Assembly: GCA_028724265.1 (NCBI GenBank)
Contig: JAQYDG010000008.1
Coordinates: 62,001 to 126,000 of the forward strand
DNA: 64,000 nt
From: Actinomycetaceae bacterium
GTDB taxonomy: Bacteria > Actinomycetota > Actinomycetes > Actinomycetales > Actinomycetaceae
Reading direction: 5' to 3'
The notes beneath the pieces were generated by a model that made no database searches, was not told the DNA's origin, and saw only the letters and a program-made list of their open reading frames with translations. Positions 13,348 through 31,282 of the stretch are shown here, one piece after another. The first letter of the stretch is position 1; each line of letters starts with the position of its first letter. Made by a program: the position numbers and the translations under genes.

Positions 13348-14668
13348 AGATCACGGGAATCTCCTGTGTGGGCGTATCAACGATAGCGACCTCGTCACGC
13401 CGCATGGGCAGAACATTCTTGATATACGACTGGACGGCCTCACCCATGGGGATATCTCGGCCTGCCTGCTCCGAAATAAACCATCGGTGATCCAACACTT
13501 GATGGAAAATCTCCGGACCTTCGAGTTTCCCAGCGAGATTGCGCGGCACAGCAGATACGGTCGGTTCAAATACCCTCGTCAACCACGCATGCGCCACAAC
13601 AGAATCGGGCATGTTTTCCATTCCGCTCGCCACCTGAAATTGCTTCATATCATTGACCATGCGACGCGCCTGATTTTCCTGCACCTCCATACCCGTCAAA
13701 CGCATCACTTGATGTGTGTAGTGGCCGGCATCCACCACTTTCGGCTGGATCATAATATGGGTTCCATCCACATCCTGGCGCATATTCATTTCGCCAACCT
13801 CAAAACCCAAATCGTTCAATCGGCGAATACGTTCAGCAATCTTCCATTTCGCATTCGATTCAATCGCCGTCTCTGCCGTCAATTCGTTCCACAATGCGTG
13901 ATAGCGCTGCACCAGCAGATCACCCACGCCGATCACGTCGATCTCGTCCGGAAGAATATCGCCAGCACGCAGATCCATCAGTTCGCCGATAATGTTGATC
14001 CGCGCATTGTCAACATCGTATTCGCGTTTTCCGTCACCGAGGGTCGCCGTCAGCTCACCCGTCTCAGCATCCACTAAATATGCGGCGAACATGCCTGCAT
14101 CCCTGCGAAAAAGCGTGTTGGAAAGCGACACGTCACCCCAATAGAAACCGAGCAGGTGCAGCCGCACCAGCAGCACCGAGAGCGCATCCACCAGCTTGCG
14201 TACGGTGTCCATTCTGTGATGAGAACCAAACACCGCGCGATAAGGCAGCGAATACGGCAAATGTTCGGTAATCAAACACGCGGCTAGTGGTTCTCCGTTC
14301 TTATCGATCCGGCCAGTCACGACTGCTACTGCCTGCACCGACGGCGCATTCAACCGGTCGAGATCGCGCAAAAGCTCGTATTCGTGCTTGGCAACCTCGC
14401 GCCCGATCTCCTTCACGGCCAGCAGTCGATCACCAGCGCGGACAAATCGCACCACATGGCGTGAAATGCCACGGGGAAGAGCCACAATCAGATCCTGCGG
14501 CCAATCCTCTATGGGAGTATCCCAGGGTAAATCCCATAAATTGGGGTCAGGGGTTCCTGCCGTGATCTGCAAAACACGGTCTTCTGGATCCGGCACCAGG
14601 TGTGCAAGCCACTGTGCAACATGCTCGCTGACGTAGGAGGGGTTCTGGCTATAGTTTGTTTCGCTCAT
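13304..14668 (-). CDS. DUF4032 protein, kinase-like fold
   Basis: 454 residues from the second of two adjacent ATG codons (the first is three bases upstream); GAAAG lies before them. It matches the actinobacterial DUF4032 family. The N-terminal half resembles lipopolysaccharide-kinase-like folds: [28 protein letters not shown] gives a lysine and glutamate arrangement, and [16 protein letters not shown] resembles a catalytic loop D-x-S-x-x-N. The substrate is unknown. Its 3' end overlaps recR tail-to-tail by 44 bases. Confidence 0.85.
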
Positions 14669-14958: not shown

Positions 14959-16086
14959 TCAGTCTCCCAAACGCTTACCCGTGCTCGCCGAGAAGAAGTG
15001 CACATGCTCCACCTCGGGAACCAGATGCAGCACATCACCAACTGACGCCGAATGTGTTGGTTCAAGACGCACCGTCACCTGATCCGAATCGTCACCCGAA
15101 CCGAACTTCTCCGATTCAACGTCAGACCCGGCAATAGAACCGTACACATACACGTCCGAACCAAGCCCCTCCACGTAGTTCACGTTCACGGGCACATCGT
15201 TCTCGGTAGGCTCGCCCGACACATCGAGAGCCTCCGGGCGGATACCCACCACAATCTTTCCGTTATCTTCAGGAGCCACAGCGTTCACGATATCGGCTGG
15301 AACACGCACGTGCGCATCACCAAAGTGGGCAACGTCGCCCACAAGATTCCACTTGCCCAGGTTCATCGCAGGAGAGCCAATAAAACCGGCCACGAACGCA
15401 TTAGCTGGATGAGCGTACATCTGTTCAGGCGTGCCCACCTGCTGCAGAATACCGAAATTCAACACAGCGATGCGGTCGCCCATCGTCAGAGCCTCAGTTT
15501 GGTCGTGGGTCACGTACAGTGTGGTAATACCAAGACGACGCTGGAGGGATGCAATCTGCGTACGCGTCTGTACACGTAGCTTCGCATCCAAGTTCGACAG
15601 CGGTTCGTCCATCAAGAACACATGAGGTTCACGCACGATTGCGCGCCCCATTGCCACACGCTGACGCTGCCCGCCGGAGAGTGCCTTCGGTTTGCGATCC
15701 AAATATGGCATCAGATCCAGAATCTTGGCAGCTTCTTCCACCCGCGCGCGAATCTGATCTTTAGGAACGCCGGCGATTTTCAACGCAAAACCCATGTTGT
15801 CCGCCACGGTCATATGCGGATACAGCGCGTAGTTCTGGAACACCATTGCGATATCACGGTCTTTGGGCGAAACGTCAGTCACATCACGGTCGCCGATGAA
15901 AATACGACCTGAATTGACGTCTTCCAGCCCTGCGAGCATACGCAGAGTCGTAGATTTACCACAGCCCGAAGGGCCGACGAGAACAAGAAACTCGCCGTCG
16001 TTAATGTGCAGGTCTAGCTGATCGACGGATGGCTTGTCCGATCCAGGATAGATGCGCGTTGCTTTATCGAATGTTACCGTTGCCAT
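14959..16086 (-). CDS. ugpC: ABC transporter ATP-binding protein of the MsmK/UgpC/SugC sugar family
   Basis: 375 residues from the ATG after GGAGGGA; a longer reading frame upstream adds 28 unlikely residues. Walker A is GPSGCGKST, the Q-loop [10 protein letters not shown], the signature [14 protein letters not shown], Walker [14 protein letters not shown] and the switch His THDQTEAL. The C-terminal ~130 residues form the OB/TOBE regulatory domain typical of carbohydrate importers ([10 protein letters not shown]). Such ATPases power one or several CUT1 sugar importers. No permease or binding protein is adjacent, so it may be a shared orphan ATPase like MsiK/MsmK. Confidence 0.92.
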
Positions 16087-16259
16087 TTCTGGTCCCTCCA
16101 CCGGCAGGTACGTGCCGGACGATCCGAGTGAAAGGTGCCGAGTTAGTGTGTCAACTCTGACACAGCACACGTTTTATGTGCCGAAATTATTATTCCACAC
16201 TGCACCCTCAACTTCCAGCCATATGCCGCCCCGATAAGCAGAGCATCGTCACACTTGGA

Positions 16260-23487: not shown

Positions 23488-23516
23488 AGGGTGACGAAAC
23501 TCGTTTGTGGCACCCT
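23488..23516 (+). terminator. Possible terminator after tRNA-Thr
   Basis: AGGGTG (23488-23493) pairs with CACCCT (23511-23516), with an inner AAAC/GTTT pairing, seven bases after the tRNA. It ends at the stop codon of the convergent ABC gene. The U-tract is poor. Confidence 0.35.
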
Positions 23517-24289
23517 TATTCCTGCGCCTCCAGTTCCCCCACCATCTCGTAGAGTTCACCGACGCCGAGTTGAGCCTTCTCCTGAGCGTTAAAATCGTGC
23601 ACAATTTTTCCTCTGTTGAGCACAATCATGCGGTTGCCCATGGCCAAAGCATCAGCCAAATGATGGGTCACCATAATCGCGCTCAGCCCTTTTTCCTCGA
23701 TCGTGCGCGTCGTAAAATCCAACACCACACGTGCCGTTTTCGGATCCAGCGCAGCAGTATGTTCATCTAGCAGGAGTATCCTTGGCGTCTTCAGGGTGGC
23801 CATCAACAGTGCGATCGACTGACGCTGCCCGCCGGAAAGTACACCAATCTCAGTGTCCAGCCTGCTTTCCAAGCCGAGGCCGAGAGGAGCAACGAGGCTC
23901 TCGAATTCCTGACGCCTCTGCGGTGTCATAGAAATCTTCAGACCTCGATTCTCGCCGCGCTTGGCCGCGAGCAGAAGATTCTCCGCGACCGTCATGCGTG
24001 GGGCGGTTCCCATCTTCGGGTCTTGGAATACGCGCCCTATTAGCCCAGCCCTATCTTCCTCGCGTCTGCGCGTCACATCGTCACCATCGATCAGTACCGA
24101 CCCGTCGTCAACAGCGATAGCCCCGGAAATAACGTTGAGCAGAGTAGATTTGCCTGCGCCATTTCCGCCCACAACCGTCACGAAATCGCCCTCAGCGACC
24201 TCAAGATTCACATTCGCCAGTGCCTGGTACGCATCGGCGGTGCGCTGATGAAAAAACTTGTTGACGCCCTTGAGTTCCAACACGTTCAT
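23516..24289 (-). CDS. ATP-binding protein of a TrpXYZ-type amino acid importer
   Basis: 257 residues. Walker A GGNGAGKST, Q-loop FQDPKMGTAP, signature LSGGQRQSIALLMA, Walker B ILLLDEHTAALDP (His in place of the usual Pro after Glu) and the switch THHLADAL are present. It is the ATPase of the COG1101/COG2984/COG4120 transporter set, some of which are predicted tryptophan importers (TrpXYZ) in Firmicutes. Its ATG overlaps the permease stop (ATGA). The Trp-rich leader at the head of this operon supports tryptophan or an indole-containing compound as substrate. Confidence 0.88.
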   Translation of the reverse strand: MNVLELKGVNKFFHQRTADAYQALANVNLEVAEGDFVTVVGGNGAGKSTLLNVISGAIAVDDGSVLIDGDDVTRRREEDRAGLIGRVFQDPKMGTAPRMTVAENLLLAAKRGENRGLKISMTPQRRQEFESLVAPLGLGLESRLDTEIGVLSGGQRQSIALLMATLKTPRILLLDEHTAALDPKTARVVLDFTTRTIEEKGLSAIMVTHHLADALAMGNRMIVLNRGKIVHDFNAQEKAQLGVGELYEMVGELEAQE

Positions 24290-25287
24290 TTGCCTGCTCC
24301 TTCTCCGTTACCTGTCTGCACCGACGAGGACTCTGCTCCAGCCGTCACCGCCGTGGAGCCGCCAATGGAATCACGCATATCCTGCGAGGGCGCCGCAGCG
24401 ACCCTGTTGTGGATTGATCGCTTGCGCGATGCATACTGCTGCAGTGTGGGAATCGAGAGGCACAGCCCAAGAACAATTGCGGAAATGAGTTTGAAGTTGT
24501 CGGTGTTGATATTCAGCATCAGTACCACTGCGAGAAGGAGCCGATATATCACGCTACCGATGAAAATGGTCAGCAGCCGCACGCCCAGGCTCACATGCTT
24601 CACCACAACCTCACCGATAATGATTGCTGCCAGGCCAATCACCAGGGACCCCACACCCATCGACAGGTCGGCATAGCCGTTGTCGGTCGCCACTAGATAT
24701 CCCGAGAGCGCAATCAGCCCATTCCCCAGCATGTAGCCCAACATCGTCATTTCCGCGCTCGGAATACCAAGTGCATTCGCCATCACCGGATTATCCCCCG
24801 TCGCGATCAGCGCCTGTCCCATGTCGGTGCGGAAAAACGTCCCAAGCACAAGGTAGACGATCAGTATCACCACAACGCCGATCAGGAGGGTGTCCATATT
24901 ACGCGGCAAACCCAGGCCAGCGAGCGCGCTTTTCAGCGTGCGAACTCCATTGAGGGACAGGTTCGCTTGGCCAAGAAAGACGAGGTTGACCGAGTACAAG
25001 CCGGTCATCGTGATGATCCCAGCCAACAACGAATTAATATGCGCTCGCGTAATCAACAGGGCAGTCACAGCGCCCGCTGAGGCACCAATGAGAAACGCGA
25101 TAACGAGGGCAAGCAGCGGATCCAGCCCCAACACCAGCAGCTGAGCTCCAACAGCTGCACCAAGTGTGAATGACGATTCAGTGGTCAGATCAGCTTCGTT
25201 GAGCACGCGGAACGTCACAAAGACGCCCATGCCCATAATCGTCCAGATCGCACCTTGCGAGAGTGCCGAAAGAAGAATCTCCATCAC
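24286..25287 (-). CDS. Permease of a TrpXYZ-type amino acid importer
   Basis: 333 residues with about eight to nine hydrophobic helices, beginning MMEILLSALSQGAIWTIMGM. It contains the family stretch FVTFRVLNEADLTTESSF, where the ligand path would lie, and GLYSVNLVFLGQANLSL. The C-terminal ~60 residues are hydrophilic and rich in Ser/Ala/Gly, longer than usual, and probably cytoplasmic. It belongs with the binding protein eight bases upstream and the overlapping ATPase downstream. The start could be either of two adjacent ATG codons. Confidence 0.88.
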   Translation of the reverse strand: MMEILLSALSQGAIWTIMGMGVFVTFRVLNEADLTTESSFTLGAAVGAQLLVLGLDPLLALVIAFLIGASAGAVTALLITRAHINSLLAGIITMTGLYSVNLVFLGQANLSLNGVRTLKSALAGLGLPRNMDTLLIGVVVILIVYLVLGTFFRTDMGQALIATGDNPVMANALGIPSAEMTMLGYMLGNGLIALSGYLVATDNGYADLSMGVGSLVIGLAAIIIGEVVVKHVSLGVRLLTIFIGSVIYRLLLAVVLMLNINTDNFKLISAIVLGLCLSIPTLQQYASRKRSIHNRVAAAPSQDMRDSIGGSTAVTAGAESSSVQTGNGEGAGK

Positions 25288-25295
25288 TCAACCCC

Positions 25296-26516
25296 TCAAA
25301 TCCGCTTGCCTGGCTGGTTGTTGGCCACGTCTTTCGCCGCGCCGGCCGAGCCGCCAGTCTGATTACCAGGTTTATCGCCAGCCTGATCGCCAGTCCCTGC
25401 AAGATCAATCGCCGAACGCATGACGTCATCGGGAATCTTGATGCCTAAAATCTTCGCTTCTTTCGAGTTGATAAAGGTTTCGGATGTGTTCGTCTGTTTC
25501 ACTGGATACGAAGCAGGATCTGCACCCTCGATCACGTCAGCGAGCGCATCACCCGAGTCCTTGCCCCACGCATACTGATTGATGCCAACCGTTGCCAGGC
25601 CTCCTGCCTGAACCATCGCATCCACTACGGGGTACACCGGCACCTTATGAGCGTTCGTCACCGAGATCAGCGTCGGCATTGCCGAGGCTACCGTGTTGTC
25701 CTCCGGAACATAGATCGCGTCCACCTGGCCTGCCAGCTGCTCAGCAACCTGTGCCAAGTCGTTCGTCCCTGTGATCGTCATTTCCTTAATGGCCAGTCCA
25801 CGCTGGGCTGCAAGCTGTTTCATCGAGTCGACTTGGCTTGCCACATTCTCCGAGGATGACGAATACAGCACGCCTAAAGTCTTCACGTGTGGCGTCATTT
25901 TCACCATCACGTCGAGTGTCTCATTATCGATATTTGCCATCGTTGCACCCGTGAGGTTCATACCAGGCGCATCCAGACTTTTCGCCAGCCCGGCAGCAAC
26001 CGGATCGGAAATGCCCGCATAAATCACCGGCACCGCCCCGCGCGCAGCATTATTCAAGGCCTGGGCAGCTGGGGTAGCAATCCCCACAACAATATCCTGA
26101 TGTTTCGCAATAAAAGTATCAGAAATCGACTTTAATAAATTCTGATCGCCATTGCCGTTCTGATAATTAATGACAATATTTTTGCCGTCAATATAGCCTC
26201 GATGTGCCAGCTCATCAATAATGCCTTGCCGAATAGCGTCGAGGCTTGGATGGCTCATCATTTGCAACATGCCAATTTTTATCTGCTTCTTGCCGCCTGG
26301 CAACTGTTTCGGGCTCGCTGCGGGCGCGGGGGTCTCACTCGTCGTCGCGCTCCCATCACCAGGAGCTGTGCCCTGAGCCGCAGGTGGGGCCGGTGACGAC
26401 TGCGCGCTCGCACCAGAATTCTCTAGCTGATGCAGCTTAATCAGCGACGGCATCGTGAGGAAAAGGACAAGAAGACACCCGACGAGGAACGCTCCAACGG
26501 TAGAAATCTTTTTCAT
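25296..26516 (-). CDS. Substrate-binding protein of a TrpXYZ-type importer
   Basis: 406 residues from the ATG following AAAGAGAAAGTG; an upstream in-frame ATG adds nine residues. It has an N-terminal signal/anchor helix (STVGAFLVGCLLVLFLTMPS), a Ser/Ala/Pro linker (about 35-75), then a periplasmic-binding fold: IKIGMLQMMSHPSLDAIRQG, FIAKHQDIVVGIATPAAQAL, and PVIYAGISDPVAAGL. It has the COG2984 family pattern. The Gly/Gln/Ala-rich C-terminus is low complexity. It is the first structural gene of the operon; transcription probably has to pass the attenuator at 26605-26702. Confidence 0.9.
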   Translation of the reverse strand: MKKISTVGAFLVGCLLVLFLTMPSLIKLHQLENSGASAQSSPAPPAAQGTAPGDGSATTSETPAPAASPKQLPGGKKQIKIGMLQMMSHPSLDAIRQGIIDELAHRGYIDGKNIVINYQNGNGDQNLLKSISDTFIAKHQDIVVGIATPAAQALNNAARGAVPVIYAGISDPVAAGLAKSLDAPGMNLTGATMANIDNETLDVMVKMTPHVKTLGVLYSSSSENVASQVDSMKQLAAQRGLAIKEMTITGTNDLAQVAEQLAGQVDAIYVPEDNTVASAMPTLISVTNAHKVPVYPVVDAMVQAGGLATVGINQYAWGKDSGDALADVIEGADPASYPVKQTNTSETFINSKEAKILGIKIPDDVMRSAIDLAGTGDQAGDKPGNQTGGSAGAAKDVANNQPGKRI

Positions 26517-26604: not shown

Positions 26605-26640
26605 CACAACAAAAGCCCCCGCCGTGATCGCGGGGGCTTA
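26605..26640 (-). terminator. Rho-independent terminator of the Trp attenuator
   Basis: On the minus strand AAGCCCCCGC, a seven-base loop and GCGGGGGCTT (arms 26630-26639 and 26613-26622) form a strong 10-bp stem, followed by TTGTTGTG. It lies about 90 bases after the leader peptide stop and before the transporter genes, where a conditional terminator should be. Confidence 0.88.
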
Positions 26641-26739
26641 CGGAACTTGAGAATGTCCACGATGATGGCCGCTACACGATCACTACCACTCTGTGCGATC
26701 TGTGCAGCTGCAACGAAGCCGGGCAGCTAGGCAGATCGC
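26624..26739 (-). promoter_or_regulatory. Antiterminator and competing pairings of the Trp attenuator
   Basis: Two alternative pairings are visible. The stretch covering the last Trp codon (26732-26739) is exactly complementary over 8 bp to 26695-26702. Further on, 26675-26683 can pair over 9 bp (one G-U) with 26624-26632, the loop and base of the terminator's 5' arm; that would stop the terminator from forming. This is the layout of ribosome-mediated attenuation. Folding was done by eye. Confidence 0.65.
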
Positions 26740-26789
26740 CAGCTACGCCAGCCGCGCCAACGCGCAACCATCGTGAAATCACGACTCAT
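26727..26789 (-). CDS. Tryptophan-rich leader peptide
   Basis: A 20-codon ORF reads MSRDFTMVARWRGWRSWRSA and ends in TAG. Three Trp codons sit at positions 11, 14 and 17, in alternation with Arg, where Trp is normally the rarest residue. The start follows AAAGGA with eight bases between. About 90 bases downstream is a strong terminator, then the TrpXYZ-type transporter operon. By analogy with trpL, a ribosome stalled for lack of Trp-tRNA would favour the antiterminator and turn on uptake. Confidence 0.88.
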   Translation of the reverse strand: MSRDFTMVARWRGWRSWRSA

Positions 26790-27004
26790 ATCCGTGTCCT
26801 TTCGTTTCCTTATCACGTCAGATGCTCGCACCATCATGTGCCATCACATCATGTGTTCGCACTGTGAACCCCACTCGGGCGTTGATGCCGCCGTCACCAG
26901 CTGGTACACCTGGCACGCCCGCGCAGCGCTCACCTCGAAGAAGTTGCTCATAACATAGCACACCCCGCAGGGCACTCTCAAAATCGCGTCACGATGTGGA
27001 CACG
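26790..27004. other. Upstream region of the Trp leader
   Basis: No gene seen between the leader peptide and the stop of the alcohol dehydrogenase gene. The promoter of the transporter operon should lie here. Repeated CATCATGTG-like words (around 26832-26856) are visible but I cannot assign a -35/-10 pair. Confidence 0.35.
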
Positions 27005-28105
27005 TCAGAAAGACGTGATAACAGATCTGGCAACTTCACCGTGCTTCTGTGCCTGGTATCCCTCGTTGATCTCGTCGATGCTGATCTTGCGCGACACAAG
27101 GTCATCGAGATTCAAACGCCCCTGCTTGTACAGGCGAGCATACATGGGGATATCGTGCTTGATATTCGTTGACCCCATGTACACACCCTGCACCTTCGCT
27201 TGCTTGGTGAGGAGGCCACGAAGCATGGGGATAGAGAACTCCTCCTGCGGCGGGCGCATGCCGATAAAGTAGGCGCCACCACCCACACCCACAGATGCTG
27301 CAGCCTGCTTTTCTGTGACGTCAAGCCCGATCACCTCAAACGCATGATTGACCCCACCACCGGTGATGCCTTGGATAGCCTTCACAGGGTCTTCAGATCC
27401 GGAATTGATCGTGTGCGTCGCACCGAATCGCCGCGAGAGTTCGAGCTTCGAATCAGACAGATCAACAGCGATAATCGTGGAAGCACCCGCAATCTTCGCG
27501 CCTTGGAGAACATTCAGGCCAACACCGCCTGCACCGAAAACTGCGACCGAATCGCCAGGTTGCACATGTGCCGTATTGATTGCGCCGCCTGCACCTGTGA
27601 TCACACCGCAACCCAAGATGGCCGCTTGAGCAAGCGGAATATCCTCCGTGACTTTTACAAGCTGATTCTGGTGAATCACCACATACTCCGAAAACGCACC
27701 CACACCCCATGCCTGGGACACCGGCTCGCCCTTCAACGAGATACGCGGAGGCTGATCTGGAGTCCGCAGCGTATCCTCCGGATGCTGACACTGATAGGTG
27801 CGCCCATCTAAACACGCCTCGCAGTGTCCGCAAAACTGGACGAGGGATCCGACAACGATGTCGCCGACGGCAAAATCCGTGACGTCCGGCCCAACTTCCT
27901 GAACGACGCCAGCAAGTTCATGGCCAGCTACCAGCGGGAATGGATAGATGCCATAGGGATCTTCAACAAGATGGATATCCGAAGCGCACAATCCAGATCC
28001 GAGGGTTTTCACAAGAACTTCTGCGCCGATTGGATCGGCTATATCAACAGTTTCAATTGTGAACGGTTCGCCGAGAGCGTGCACCACTGCTGCTTTTGAT
28101 TTCAC
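27005..28105 (-). CDS. Zinc-dependent alcohol dehydrogenase (MDR family)
   Basis: 366 residues. Catalytic zinc ligands are Cys in GLCASDIH and His-Glu in GHELAGVV. The structural zinc site is the four-Cys loop FCGHCEACLDGRTYQC. The NAD-binding motif is VAVFGAGGVGLN with Asp in IIAVDLSDSKL, indicating NAD rather than NADP. The family oxidises alcohols; closest types are class III-like or mycothiol/aryl-alcohol dehydrogenases, but the substrate is unknown. The start is GTG after AAAGGGAG. It is not coupled to neighbours. Confidence 0.92.
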   Translation of the reverse strand: MKSKAAVVHALGEPFTIETVDIADPIGAEVLVKTLGSGLCASDIHLVEDPYGIYPFPLVAGHELAGVVQEVGPDVTDFAVGDIVVGSLVQFCGHCEACLDGRTYQCQHPEDTLRTPDQPPRISLKGEPVSQAWGVGAFSEYVVIHQNQLVKVTEDIPLAQAAILGCGVITGAGGAINTAHVQPGDSVAVFGAGGVGLNVLQGAKIAGASTIIAVDLSDSKLELSRRFGATHTINSGSEDPVKAIQGITGGGVNHAFEVIGLDVTEKQAAASVGVGGGAYFIGMRPPQEEFSIPMLRGLLTKQAKVQGVYMGSTNIKHDIPMYARLYKQGRLNLDDLVSRKISIDEINEGYQAQKHGEVARSVITSF

Positions 28106-28427: not shown

Positions 28428-30557
28428 TTATTCGTCCAGCCAACGCAGCGGAGCAGCCATCTTCAACAGCATTTCCTGCCGCTCAGCCGCAGGATCAGAG
28501 TCCAGAACAATAGCGCCGCCGGCGCCCACGCTGAATTCCTCGTGGCAGTACACAGCAGTGCGAATGATGATATTCAGATCCGCGTCACCGTTATCGCCAA
28601 TCCACCCCAGAGCACCAGAATAGATTCCCCGCCCTGCCCCTTCGAGCTGATCGATAATGTTGCATGTACGTTCTTTCGGTGCTCCCGTCATCGAGCCGCC
28701 TGGAAACATAGCCGCCACCACATCCTTGATGGACGTTCCAGGCTTCACGTGCCCGATGACACGCGCCAAGAGCTGATGCACAGTTTCAAAAGACTCCACC
28801 TGCATACCCTCCGGCACCTGCACACTGCCCGGTTCGCACACGCGGGCTAGGTCGTTTCGCAGTAAATCAAGCACCATCAGCAATTCGGCGCGGCTCTTCG
28901 GATCAGTGAGCAGCTGGTGCCGCGCGCGCTGGTCGGTGACGGGATCCGTTCCCCGAGGCAGAGTCCCCTTAATGGGCTTCGTCCGCACCCACCCTTGACG
29001 AATATTCACGAACGACTCCGGAGATGTGCACAAAACAGTTGCTTCCGGCGTTGCGATGTACGCGCTGTACGGAGCTGGATTAGCCGCTCGCATTCGCGCA
29101 TAGATGGCGCTCAACCGATGCGAATCCAGGCTGCACTGCACAGCAGCCTCGGTGGTCAGGCAGACCTCATAAGAATCGCCACTCACCAAATACTCTTTGG
29201 CTTTGCGCACCTTGCGTTCATAGTCGGCGTCGCTTTCTCGCCGGTGGTCGGGCAGGCTGGCGAGCTTCGCACGCAGATCGTCATCGAGTTCGGTCTGCCA
29301 TTCCTGGGATACGTGAGTGCTGTGGAGGGATTGGTGTTGAGGGGAATGGGCAGCAAGCTGTTGTTCCGTTTGACGAATCCACTCGGCGTCCTGGGCGTCT
29401 GCCACCAGCCATGCCTGCTGGTTCTGATGATCGACGGCTAAGAAACGGTCGGCACGCATCCACACGGCTTCCGGCGTGTTGCTTCTCCGGTGAGCAACAC
29501 GGAAACCAAAGTCAGCCCTCGCTTCATATCCGAGGTATCCCACCCAACCTCCTTTGAACGGAGTAGGAACGTCTGCCACCGCGTCACGTGGAGAGTGCAG
29601 CTCTAGCTGATCCATCACCGTTCCCGCTGGAGCACTACCGCGCAGTTCACCGTCGGCTCCCACCCGATGCACCGCGTCCGGCCACGAAACCAGACACTCC
29701 GACACAACAGGCACTCCAATGTAGGAGTATCGCCCTTCCTCGGTCGTTTGCAGGGCCGAATCCAGCCAGAAGCTGTATGCATGCCCTTCAGATATGACGC
29801 GGTAAGCCTCGAACATATCCGGAACGGGAATCTCACGCACTATCGGCTTGCGCTGCAACGGATGCTGCCGAGGCCGATTTTGCGGCGCCGCGTTCTGCAT
29901 TGCAGGGTTGTGAGCTGCCCGCGCGCGCGTTGCTGGCAGACGCGTTACCGAAGATTGCTCTTCCGGCACATACTGGGCAACGCCAGCAGCGCGAGCCCAG
30001 TGCTGAACGATCTGTACTCCATAGTCCGATTCGCACGATTCGGGATGAAACTGCACACCCCACCAGGGCTTATCCGTGGCGTGAAACGCCATCAACACAC
30101 CGTCATCGCTCAACGCATCTGGCACCAAGCGGCGACGTACGTCGGGCTGTGAATAGTCGGTGACGGCGAGCGAATGGTACCGCACCGCCGCAAAATTCTG
30201 CGGGATCCCAGCCCACATGCCTTGACCCGTGTGCGTAATATGGGCGACTTTCCCATGCATCGGTTGGATGCGCTGCACCCTCGCACCCAAGAGTGTCGCT
30301 AGCAGTTGGTGACCCATACACACACCCAGCACAGGACCGCAGTAGGCCTGCACAAGGTCACCCACAACACCGACATCGGCTGCGTTGTACGGACTTCCGG
30401 GGCCTGGCGATAAAATCACTGCGTCATAGCCGTGCAGTGACACCTGAGGATCATCGAACGGAACCACATCCGGCCACATGCCCAGGGCGGTATAACACAA
30501 GTTCGCCACATTGTAGGTGTACGAGTCGTGGAAATCGACAAGGAGGATATGCGTCAT
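28428..30557 (-). CDS. pabAB: Aminodeoxychorismate synthase, fused glutaminase and synthase (PabA-PabB)
   Basis: 709 residues. N-terminal class I glutamine amidotransferase (about 1-205): nucleophile in GVCMGHQ and the His-Glu pair in VQFHPES. A Pro/Arg/Gln linker follows, then a chorismate-binding domain (about 250-705). The latter carries PIKGTLPRG, whose Lys is the hallmark of PabB; anthranilate synthases have Ala there. Further motifs are ELLMVLDLLRNDLARVCE and FPGGSMTGAPKERT. It makes 4-amino-4-deoxychorismate for folate. The ATG overlaps the stop of pabC (ATGA), so lyase and synthase are coupled. Confidence 0.93.
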   Translation of the reverse strand: MTHILLVDFHDSYTYNVANLCYTALGMWPDVVPFDDPQVSLHGYDAVILSPGPGSPYNAADVGVVGDLVQAYCGPVLGVCMGHQLLATLLGARVQRIQPMHGKVAHITHTGQGMWAGIPQNFAAVRYHSLAVTDYSQPDVRRRLVPDALSDDGVLMAFHATDKPWWGVQFHPESCESDYGVQIVQHWARAAGVAQYVPEEQSSVTRLPATRARAAHNPAMQNAAPQNRPRQHPLQRKPIVREIPVPDMFEAYRVISEGHAYSFWLDSALQTTEEGRYSYIGVPVVSECLVSWPDAVHRVGADGELRGSAPAGTVMDQLELHSPRDAVADVPTPFKGGWVGYLGYEARADFGFRVAHRRSNTPEAVWMRADRFLAVDHQNQQAWLVADAQDAEWIRQTEQQLAAHSPQHQSLHSTHVSQEWQTELDDDLRAKLASLPDHRRESDADYERKVRKAKEYLVSGDSYEVCLTTEAAVQCSLDSHRLSAIYARMRAANPAPYSAYIATPEATVLCTSPESFVNIRQGWVRTKPIKGTLPRGTDPVTDQRARHQLLTDPKSRAELLMVLDLLRNDLARVCEPGSVQVPEGMQVESFETVHQLLARVIGHVKPGTSIKDVVAAMFPGGSMTGAPKERTCNIIDQLEGAGRGIYSGALGWIGDNGDADLNIIIRTAVYCHEEFSVGAGGAIVLDSDPAAERQEMLLKMAAPLRWLDE

Positions 30558-31282
30558 GACAGAGGTGTCGCCTCCTGAAGCCACAGCTCGTTGAGCCTGG
30601 ACACGCGGGTGAGCGTATCAGATCCCGGCGCTCCGCCCTCTGGCCTTCCGCTGCCACGCATTGAGGGCGGTGGAGTTGGGGAAAACGTGAGCATCCGAAA
30701 GCCGTGCAAGGCGTTGGCACTCACAGCGCGCCCTGCTCGAACCGCCGCCACGACGTCGGGAAACGACAGCGGCACAGCACGCACCCGAACGTGCAGCTGC
30801 AACCACTGAACCGTTGTGGAGGGCAGGTTGTGGCCTGCACACGTTACAAACTCGCCCTCGTCATCAATCAGCAGCACGGCACTGGTATTTGTTTCTAGCA
30901 CGCAGCCTTCAGAATCGACAATGAAATAGTCAGTGCCGATTTCATGAGCCGTGTCGGTCAGCCACTGAATATCGGGACCTTTTATCCCTGGGAATTGCCG
31001 CTGATCTCGGATCGCAACACCGGCGACGACCTGCCGAATCTGGCGTTGAGGCGCCGGTCTGTCCTGCCACGTGGAGCGCTCAGCATCTACGCGAATCCGG
31101 GGAAATCGACACCCCGGACCCACACCTGAACCAAGACGAGCGTATATATCGTCAAGTTCAGCAGCCCTACGCCACCCGAAATGTGCTTCCACGGCTGTTT
31201 TCAGTCGCGTCTTGTGGCCTTCCACATTGGTGACGCGGCCATCAACACAAAGGAAGGAATCCATCATCGACTGCGGTGTCAT
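30554..31282 (-). CDS. pabC: Aminodeoxychorismate lyase-like class IV aminotransferase
   Basis: 242 residues, rather short and divergent. Class IV PLP fold: the phosphate/PLP lysine is probably in FPGIKGPDIQWL, which matches the position of G-x-K-H-L-N in PabC. Later ETNTSAVLLIDDEGEFVT is the usual E-x-x-x-S-N/A-x-F-like motif. It would split aminodeoxychorismate into p-aminobenzoate and pyruvate. The overlap with pabAB supports this over a branched-chain or D-amino-acid aminotransferase role. The extreme C-terminus is atypical and rich in Pro/Ser/Gly. Confidence 0.82.
   Translation of the reverse strand: MTPQSMMDSFLCVDGRVTNVEGHKTRLKTAVEAHFGWRRAAELDDIYARLGSGVGPGCRFPRIRVDAERSTWQDRPAPQRQIRQVVAGVAIRDQRQFPGIKGPDIQWLTDTAHEIGTDYFIVDSEGCVLETNTSAVLLIDDEGEFVTCAGHNLPSTTVQWLQLHVRVRAVPLSFPDVVAAVRAGRAVSANALHGFRMLTFSPTPPPSMRGSGRPEGGAPGSDTLTRVSRLNELWLQEATPLS

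Follow-up and report, generated by a model that had tools for sequence, protein, structure and literature searches.

The trp attenuator of Escherichia coli controls biosynthesis, as does the enterobacterial his attenuator, which senses histidine and comprises six RNA segments pairing either as A:B, C:D and E:F or as B:C and D:E. Actinobacterial Trp attenuators are known or predicted in front of trp operons and of certain trpS genes (Seliverstov et al., 2005; PMC1262725), and trpXYZ of Streptococcus suis is controlled by a T-box (PMC9382623). Literature searches turned up no Trp leader in front of trpXYZ; an earlier mention of a leader preceding a transporter is possible, for instance by Korolev et al. 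(2015; cited in PMC4833913), whose subject is Trp attenuators in Actinobacteria.

Analysis of a 64,000-nt stretch of an Actinomycetaceae genome (hereafter, the window) points to a ribosome-mediated transcription attenuator that would sense charged tRNA-Trp and control a TrpXYZ-type importer. We place the probability of this reading at roughly 0.8, and its core, Trp-codon attenuation of the importer, appears very likely. The original prediction of such an element at 26605-26789 had located it correctly; the leader of 20 codons with three Trp codons and a ribosome site, as well as the U-tailed terminator behind it, were all recovered. The control region and the operon comprise the following features:

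26952..26981, minus strand: candidate promoter TTGAGA-18-TATGTT with extended TG, from a consensus scan
26800-26797, minus strand: Shine-Dalgarno-like AGGA, 7 nt 5' of the leader ATG
26789-26727, minus strand: predicted leader ORF of 20 codons, ATG at 26789, peptide MSRDFTMVARWRGWRSWRSA, stop codon TAG at 26729-26727
26639-26613, minus strand: intrinsic terminator with a 10-bp stem and a T-rich tail, from a consensus scan
25296..26516, minus strand: trpX-like substrate-binding protein gene, start MKKISTVGAFLVG, matching NF041285 and PDB 3lft
24286..25287, minus strand: trpY-like permease gene (BPD_transp_2)
23516..24289, minus strand: trpZ-like ATPase gene, overlapping the permease stop codon

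The three Trp codons of the leader (26759-26757, 26750-26748 and 26741-26739) fall in the peptide stretch RWRGWRSWR, such that the predicted ORF combines, as judged from sequence, short length, a ribosome site and clustered regulatory codons. The terminator reads AAGCCCCCGC-GATCACG-GCGGGGGCTT followed by TTGTTG, against a background of 0.3 scan hits per region in shuffles, and an intrinsic terminator likewise stands between leader and first gene in five relatives (L003-L007). When the 488-nt intergenic stretch was dinucleotide-shuffled 2000 times, only 0.1% of the shuffles combined a short ORF having three Trp within seven codons with a terminator of this type. Thermodynamic folding, which the original prediction had put forward as a check, gave -93.1 kcal/mol for the leader stretch; dinucleotide shuffles reached -70.6 +/- 4.65, which corresponds to a z of -4.85. 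The TGCTATGTT element of the candidate promoter also stands 5' of the leader in three relatives; its assignment is uncertain, because the distance to the leader is ~160 nt here versus ~50 nt in the relatives. A scan with Rfam models found no match to a T-box or a Trp leader upstream of the operon in the window or in the relatives tested. Elsewhere in the window, an msiK cis-regulatory RNA motif (RF01747, 57.6 bits) is located at 16086-16143 on the minus strand.

The importer had been assigned to an orphan family, which proved incorrect: the binding protein is closest to TrpX. Its sole NCBIfam match is the TrpX equivalog NF041285, and since the score of 364 bits lies below the cut-off of 390, we refer to the gene as TrpX-like only. 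The nearest solved relative is PDB 3lft (240 bits, E 3.7e-70), the template used for pneumococcal TrpX (PMC9382623). Residue Q273 of S. suis TrpX, which is reported to matter for ligand specificity (PMC9382623), corresponds in our reading of the alignment to Q314, which is invariant in eight orthologues. Streptococcal TrpX is the closest solved relative, with the specificity glutamine kept. The genome encodes another TrpX-like binding protein (G000:C4:726779-727711), 37% identical and with no recognizable Trp leader.

Searches for trpA and trpC, both of which were positive in 14 of 14 control genomes, yielded no match in the window genome, which is 96% complete and assembled in eight contigs; neither gene was found in the related genomes G061, G068, G060 and G073 either. 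With some reserve owing to the assembly in eight contigs, the natural reading is that the window organism is a tryptophan auxotroph dependent on uptake, and with trpA and trpC apparently absent, tryptophan uptake is probably vital here. The leader is not confined to auxotrophs, because trpA is present in some other carriers, namely G074, G076 and most of the genomes of the second family (see below) that were tested. The leader had been taken as direct genetic evidence that the importer carries tryptophan. TrpX homology and the missing trp genes indeed agree with the leader on this substrate; the evidence is, however, circumstantial rather than direct.

Conservation before homologous operons, by which the original prediction stood or fell, extends across three genera of the window's family and into a second family, which its gene content suggests to be bifidobacteria-like; by this token, ribosome-mediated attenuation of an uptake system is supported. 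A degenerate DNA pattern of the leader, ATGGTNGCNCGNTGGCGNNGNTGG, matched 4 of 213 family genomes, each time just upstream of trpX, and its reversed control matched none of the 213. Genus g8 leaders (L003-L005) encode MVRECTMVARWRSWFGWRSA, of the form MVRxxxMVARWRSWFGWRSA, and those of genus g7 (L006, L007) encode MTYxNRQWWWLA, each ending at a stop codon and preceding trpX orthologues that are about 55% identical; like the window leader, they have three Trp codons. In the second family, all 12 genomes having the orthologue carry a Trp-codon leader before it, with at least two Trp codons in 11 and a single one in the remaining genome. These leaders usually end in VWRGWRS and are preceded by AAAGGAG; the outliers end in AWRCWRRYL, LWHGWRD and RFWRS, the last with one Trp.

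A protein tree built from 95 TrpX-like sequences groups all leader-bearing genes in a single clade of 20 (support 0.999), 18 of which have a Trp-codon leader. No Trp leader was found among the 75 genes outside the clade, including distant ones of the order and phylum, and having no leader, these more distant genes were left out as support. No clear leader was found in two clade members, L008 and L009. For L008 (genus g23), a possible leader, MFKPEMKHLLAFRLGFRDYLSQISTRWWTTDQYPR with its stop codon, lies ~40 nt before trpX and contains two adjacent Trp codons; no second genome supports it. Homologue searches in plasmids and genome contigs returned distant homologues only. Separately, in another genome of the window's family (L125 in G132, about 14139-14172), a leader MHANRWLWWR lies directly 5' of trpD in a trp biosynthesis operon and is followed by the inverted repeat GGCGCCGCC/GGCGGCGCC, a candidate classical trp biosynthesis attenuator.

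The mutually exclusive pairings anticipated behind the leader do exist; rather than a single antiterminator, they form a relay of B:C, C:D and D:E. The simple alternative of 1:2, 2:3 and terminator pairings was considered for the window and rejected, because its sign is wrong: if these helices were the only ones, a ribosome stalled over Trp codon 3 would favour termination. The sign becomes correct once the A:B hairpin is included. The proposed segments are:

26718..26754, minus strand: segment A (Trp codons 2-3) and B', around and after the stop codon, forming the default A:B hairpin
26733..26740, minus strand: segment B, GGCGAUCU (third Trp codon and the next), pairing with C if the ribosome stalls earlier
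26695..26707, minus strand: segment C, CUGCACAGAUCGC, partner of B or D
26672..26683, minus strand: segment D, GUGAUCGUGUAG, partner of C or E
26624..26632, minus strand: segment E, CGCGAUCAC, the end of the terminator 5' arm and the loop; D:E is the proposed antiterminator

When tryptophan is sufficient, the ribosome would reach the stop codon or leave, A:B and C:D would form, the terminator would fold and transcription would end before trpX. Under shortage of Trp-tRNA, the ribosome would stall at one of the first two Trp codons, covering A; the freed B could then pair with C and the freed D with E, and because D:E, which engages the terminator arm and loop, would form before the 3' arm is made, the polymerase could read into trpXYZ. 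The two sets of pairings, A:B, C:D and terminator versus B:C and D:E, are his-attenuator-like.

Four sequences, from the window (g1, L001) and genus g8 (L003, L004 and L005), were compared. Without a ribosome, all four fold as A:B, C:D and terminator, with A:B pair probabilities of 0.8-0.92. Standard pairs occupy 55 of 55 cells in B:C and D:E (seven pairs each) and 48 of 48 in C:D (12 pairs), whereas controls with the partner shifted one to three columns retain 10-56% of cells paired; the terminator loop is conserved as the complement of D. Base changes in the relay helices are one-sided (to G-U), and there is no two-sided compensatory change among the four sequences, so that the pattern represents retention, not compensatory proof. 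Covariation in the terminator stem was left uncounted, because in alignment A2 the terminator register is off by one base between the window and its relatives.

In the stall model, in which the footprint masks up to 12 nt from the first Trp codon, a stall at that codon shifts the balance towards B:C and D:E over C:D by ~6-11 kcal/mol relative to the ribosome-free state in all four sequences. The relay state wins outright in the window (by 6.1 kcal/mol) and in L004 (by 8.2), ties in L003 (0.6 short) and loses in L005 (by 3.7). With the ribosome on the stop codon, three sequences favour C:D, and L004 is near balance, slightly favouring D:E. Once the terminator 3' arm is present, the equilibrium fold restores the terminator, and therefore the switch must work kinetically, like that of known attenuators. 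The anatomical support for the relay is thus good and the energetic support moderate, and we consider the exact layout proposed here reasonably probable. It is less likely that stalling at the Trp codons acts by another RNA route, be it other antiterminator segments, Rho or kinetic trapping only: the relay state is clearly favoured at equilibrium in only two of the four sequences and the bifidobacteria-like relatives lack a terminator, yet all relay helices, including the complement of the terminator loop, are kept in the four sequences.

Sister genus g7 (L006 and L007) offers a textbook four-segment attenuator, with Trp-Trp-Trp in the leader and segment 1 overlapping its last codons. In both modelled sequences the 2:3 antiterminator is favoured on stalling, at -18 to -20 kcal/mol with the ribosome at Trp 1-3, and is absent with the ribosome on the stop codon. 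Between L006 and L007, the outer terminator pair changes from C-G to U-A, a compensatory exchange, and the 2:3 pair is kept through G-U.

These results weigh against an arrest peptide comparable to TnaC or the erm leaders, in which the nascent chain together with free Trp or a drug would stall the ribosome and switch a pump on. The peptide ends are indeed alike within a genus and in part between families (WRGWRS), as such a mechanism might have it. Clustered Trp is nevertheless the one constant feature of the three leader types (RWRGWRSWRSA, NRQWWWLA and VWRGWRS), stalling at Trp codons yields the right antiterminator in the sister genus, and induction of an importer by excess tryptophan would be odd in a likely auxotroph; we regard an arrest peptide as very unlikely. 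Less credible still is that the hairpin merely terminates the dehydrogenase gene upstream, with a Trp-rich ORF that arose by chance: that gene (27005-28105) does share the strand of the leader in the window, but leader, hairpin and trpX stay linked in relatives where the neighbours are tRNA genes (L003) or divergent genes (L004-L007 and the second family), so that the hairpin does not serve as terminator to any constant upstream gene, and the Trp codons are kept in 18 genomes. The five Arg codons among or beside the Trp codons of the window leader could point to sensing of arginine or of general translation instead of tryptophan; this is equally hard to credit, for the sister-genus NRQWWWLA has one Arg and three Trp, and the operon is TrpX-like. 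As a side observation, the dehydrogenase gene and the Trp uptake operon lie downstream of a gene pair (28428-31282, minus strand) encoding a fused PabA-PabB protein, aminodeoxychorismate-synthase-like and under all curated NCBIfam cut-offs shown, and a class IV aminotransferase.

Attenuation through Trp codons may take yet another form in the bifidobacteria-like family, where no convincing intrinsic terminator was found behind the 12 leaders. There, a stretch after the stop codon (GCCUUCGCCAAG-like) can pair either with the Trp-codon stretch or with a distal look-alike of it, CUUGGCGUGGGC, which lies some tens of bases upstream of the trpX start (L035, L067-L077). Pairing with the look-alike is better than in shuffles for 7 of 10 sequences (each at p 0.024 or less), the divergent L077 and L035 included, and pairing with the Trp-codon stretch itself is not better than shuffles; we treat this possible switch as a lead only. 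In five genomes of this family (G651, G652, G655, G659 and G660), the trpX-like gene is duplicated in tandem (L078-L082 beside L070-L077); the two G655 copies may be broken, as each matches in separate pieces.

A tentative reading, which we hold slightly less likely than not, is that one importer clade kept its Trp-codon leader across two actinobacterial families and that the RNA switch was rebuilt in at least three ways: a loop-invading his-like relay, a four-segment attenuator and a terminator-less form in which a distal segment mimics the Trp-codon stretch. If so, these leaders would constitute a small natural series in which the RNA logic of the attenuator changes while the sensing step stays constant. 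The leader furthermore supports tryptophan as the substrate of these importers, those of the bifidobacteria-like species included.

Compared with known systems, the sensing principle is known, and the target, an importer, and the relay layout appear new. The attenuators of actinobacterial trp operons (Corynebacterium, Streptomyces; Seliverstov et al., 2005, PMC1262725) come from the same phylum and share with the present element a short leader with two or three UGG codons, a GC-rich, U-tailed terminator and a competing antiterminator; their targets lie in biosynthesis, however (trp operons and, in some cases, trpS), and no case described there precedes an importer. Here, ribosome-mediated Trp attenuation would be wired to uptake rather than synthesis, in genomes apparently without trpA and trpC. 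The streptococcal trpXYZ (PMC9382623) is the same kind of transporter and is likewise turned on when tRNA-Trp is uncharged, but its T-box reads the tRNA directly; the Trp leader would take the place of the T-box in doing the same job. With respect to architecture, the sister-genus elements resemble the E. coli trp attenuator, whereas the window leader has an extra relay, which follows the same six-segment scheme as the his attenuator, with the difference that segment E lies partly in the terminator loop.
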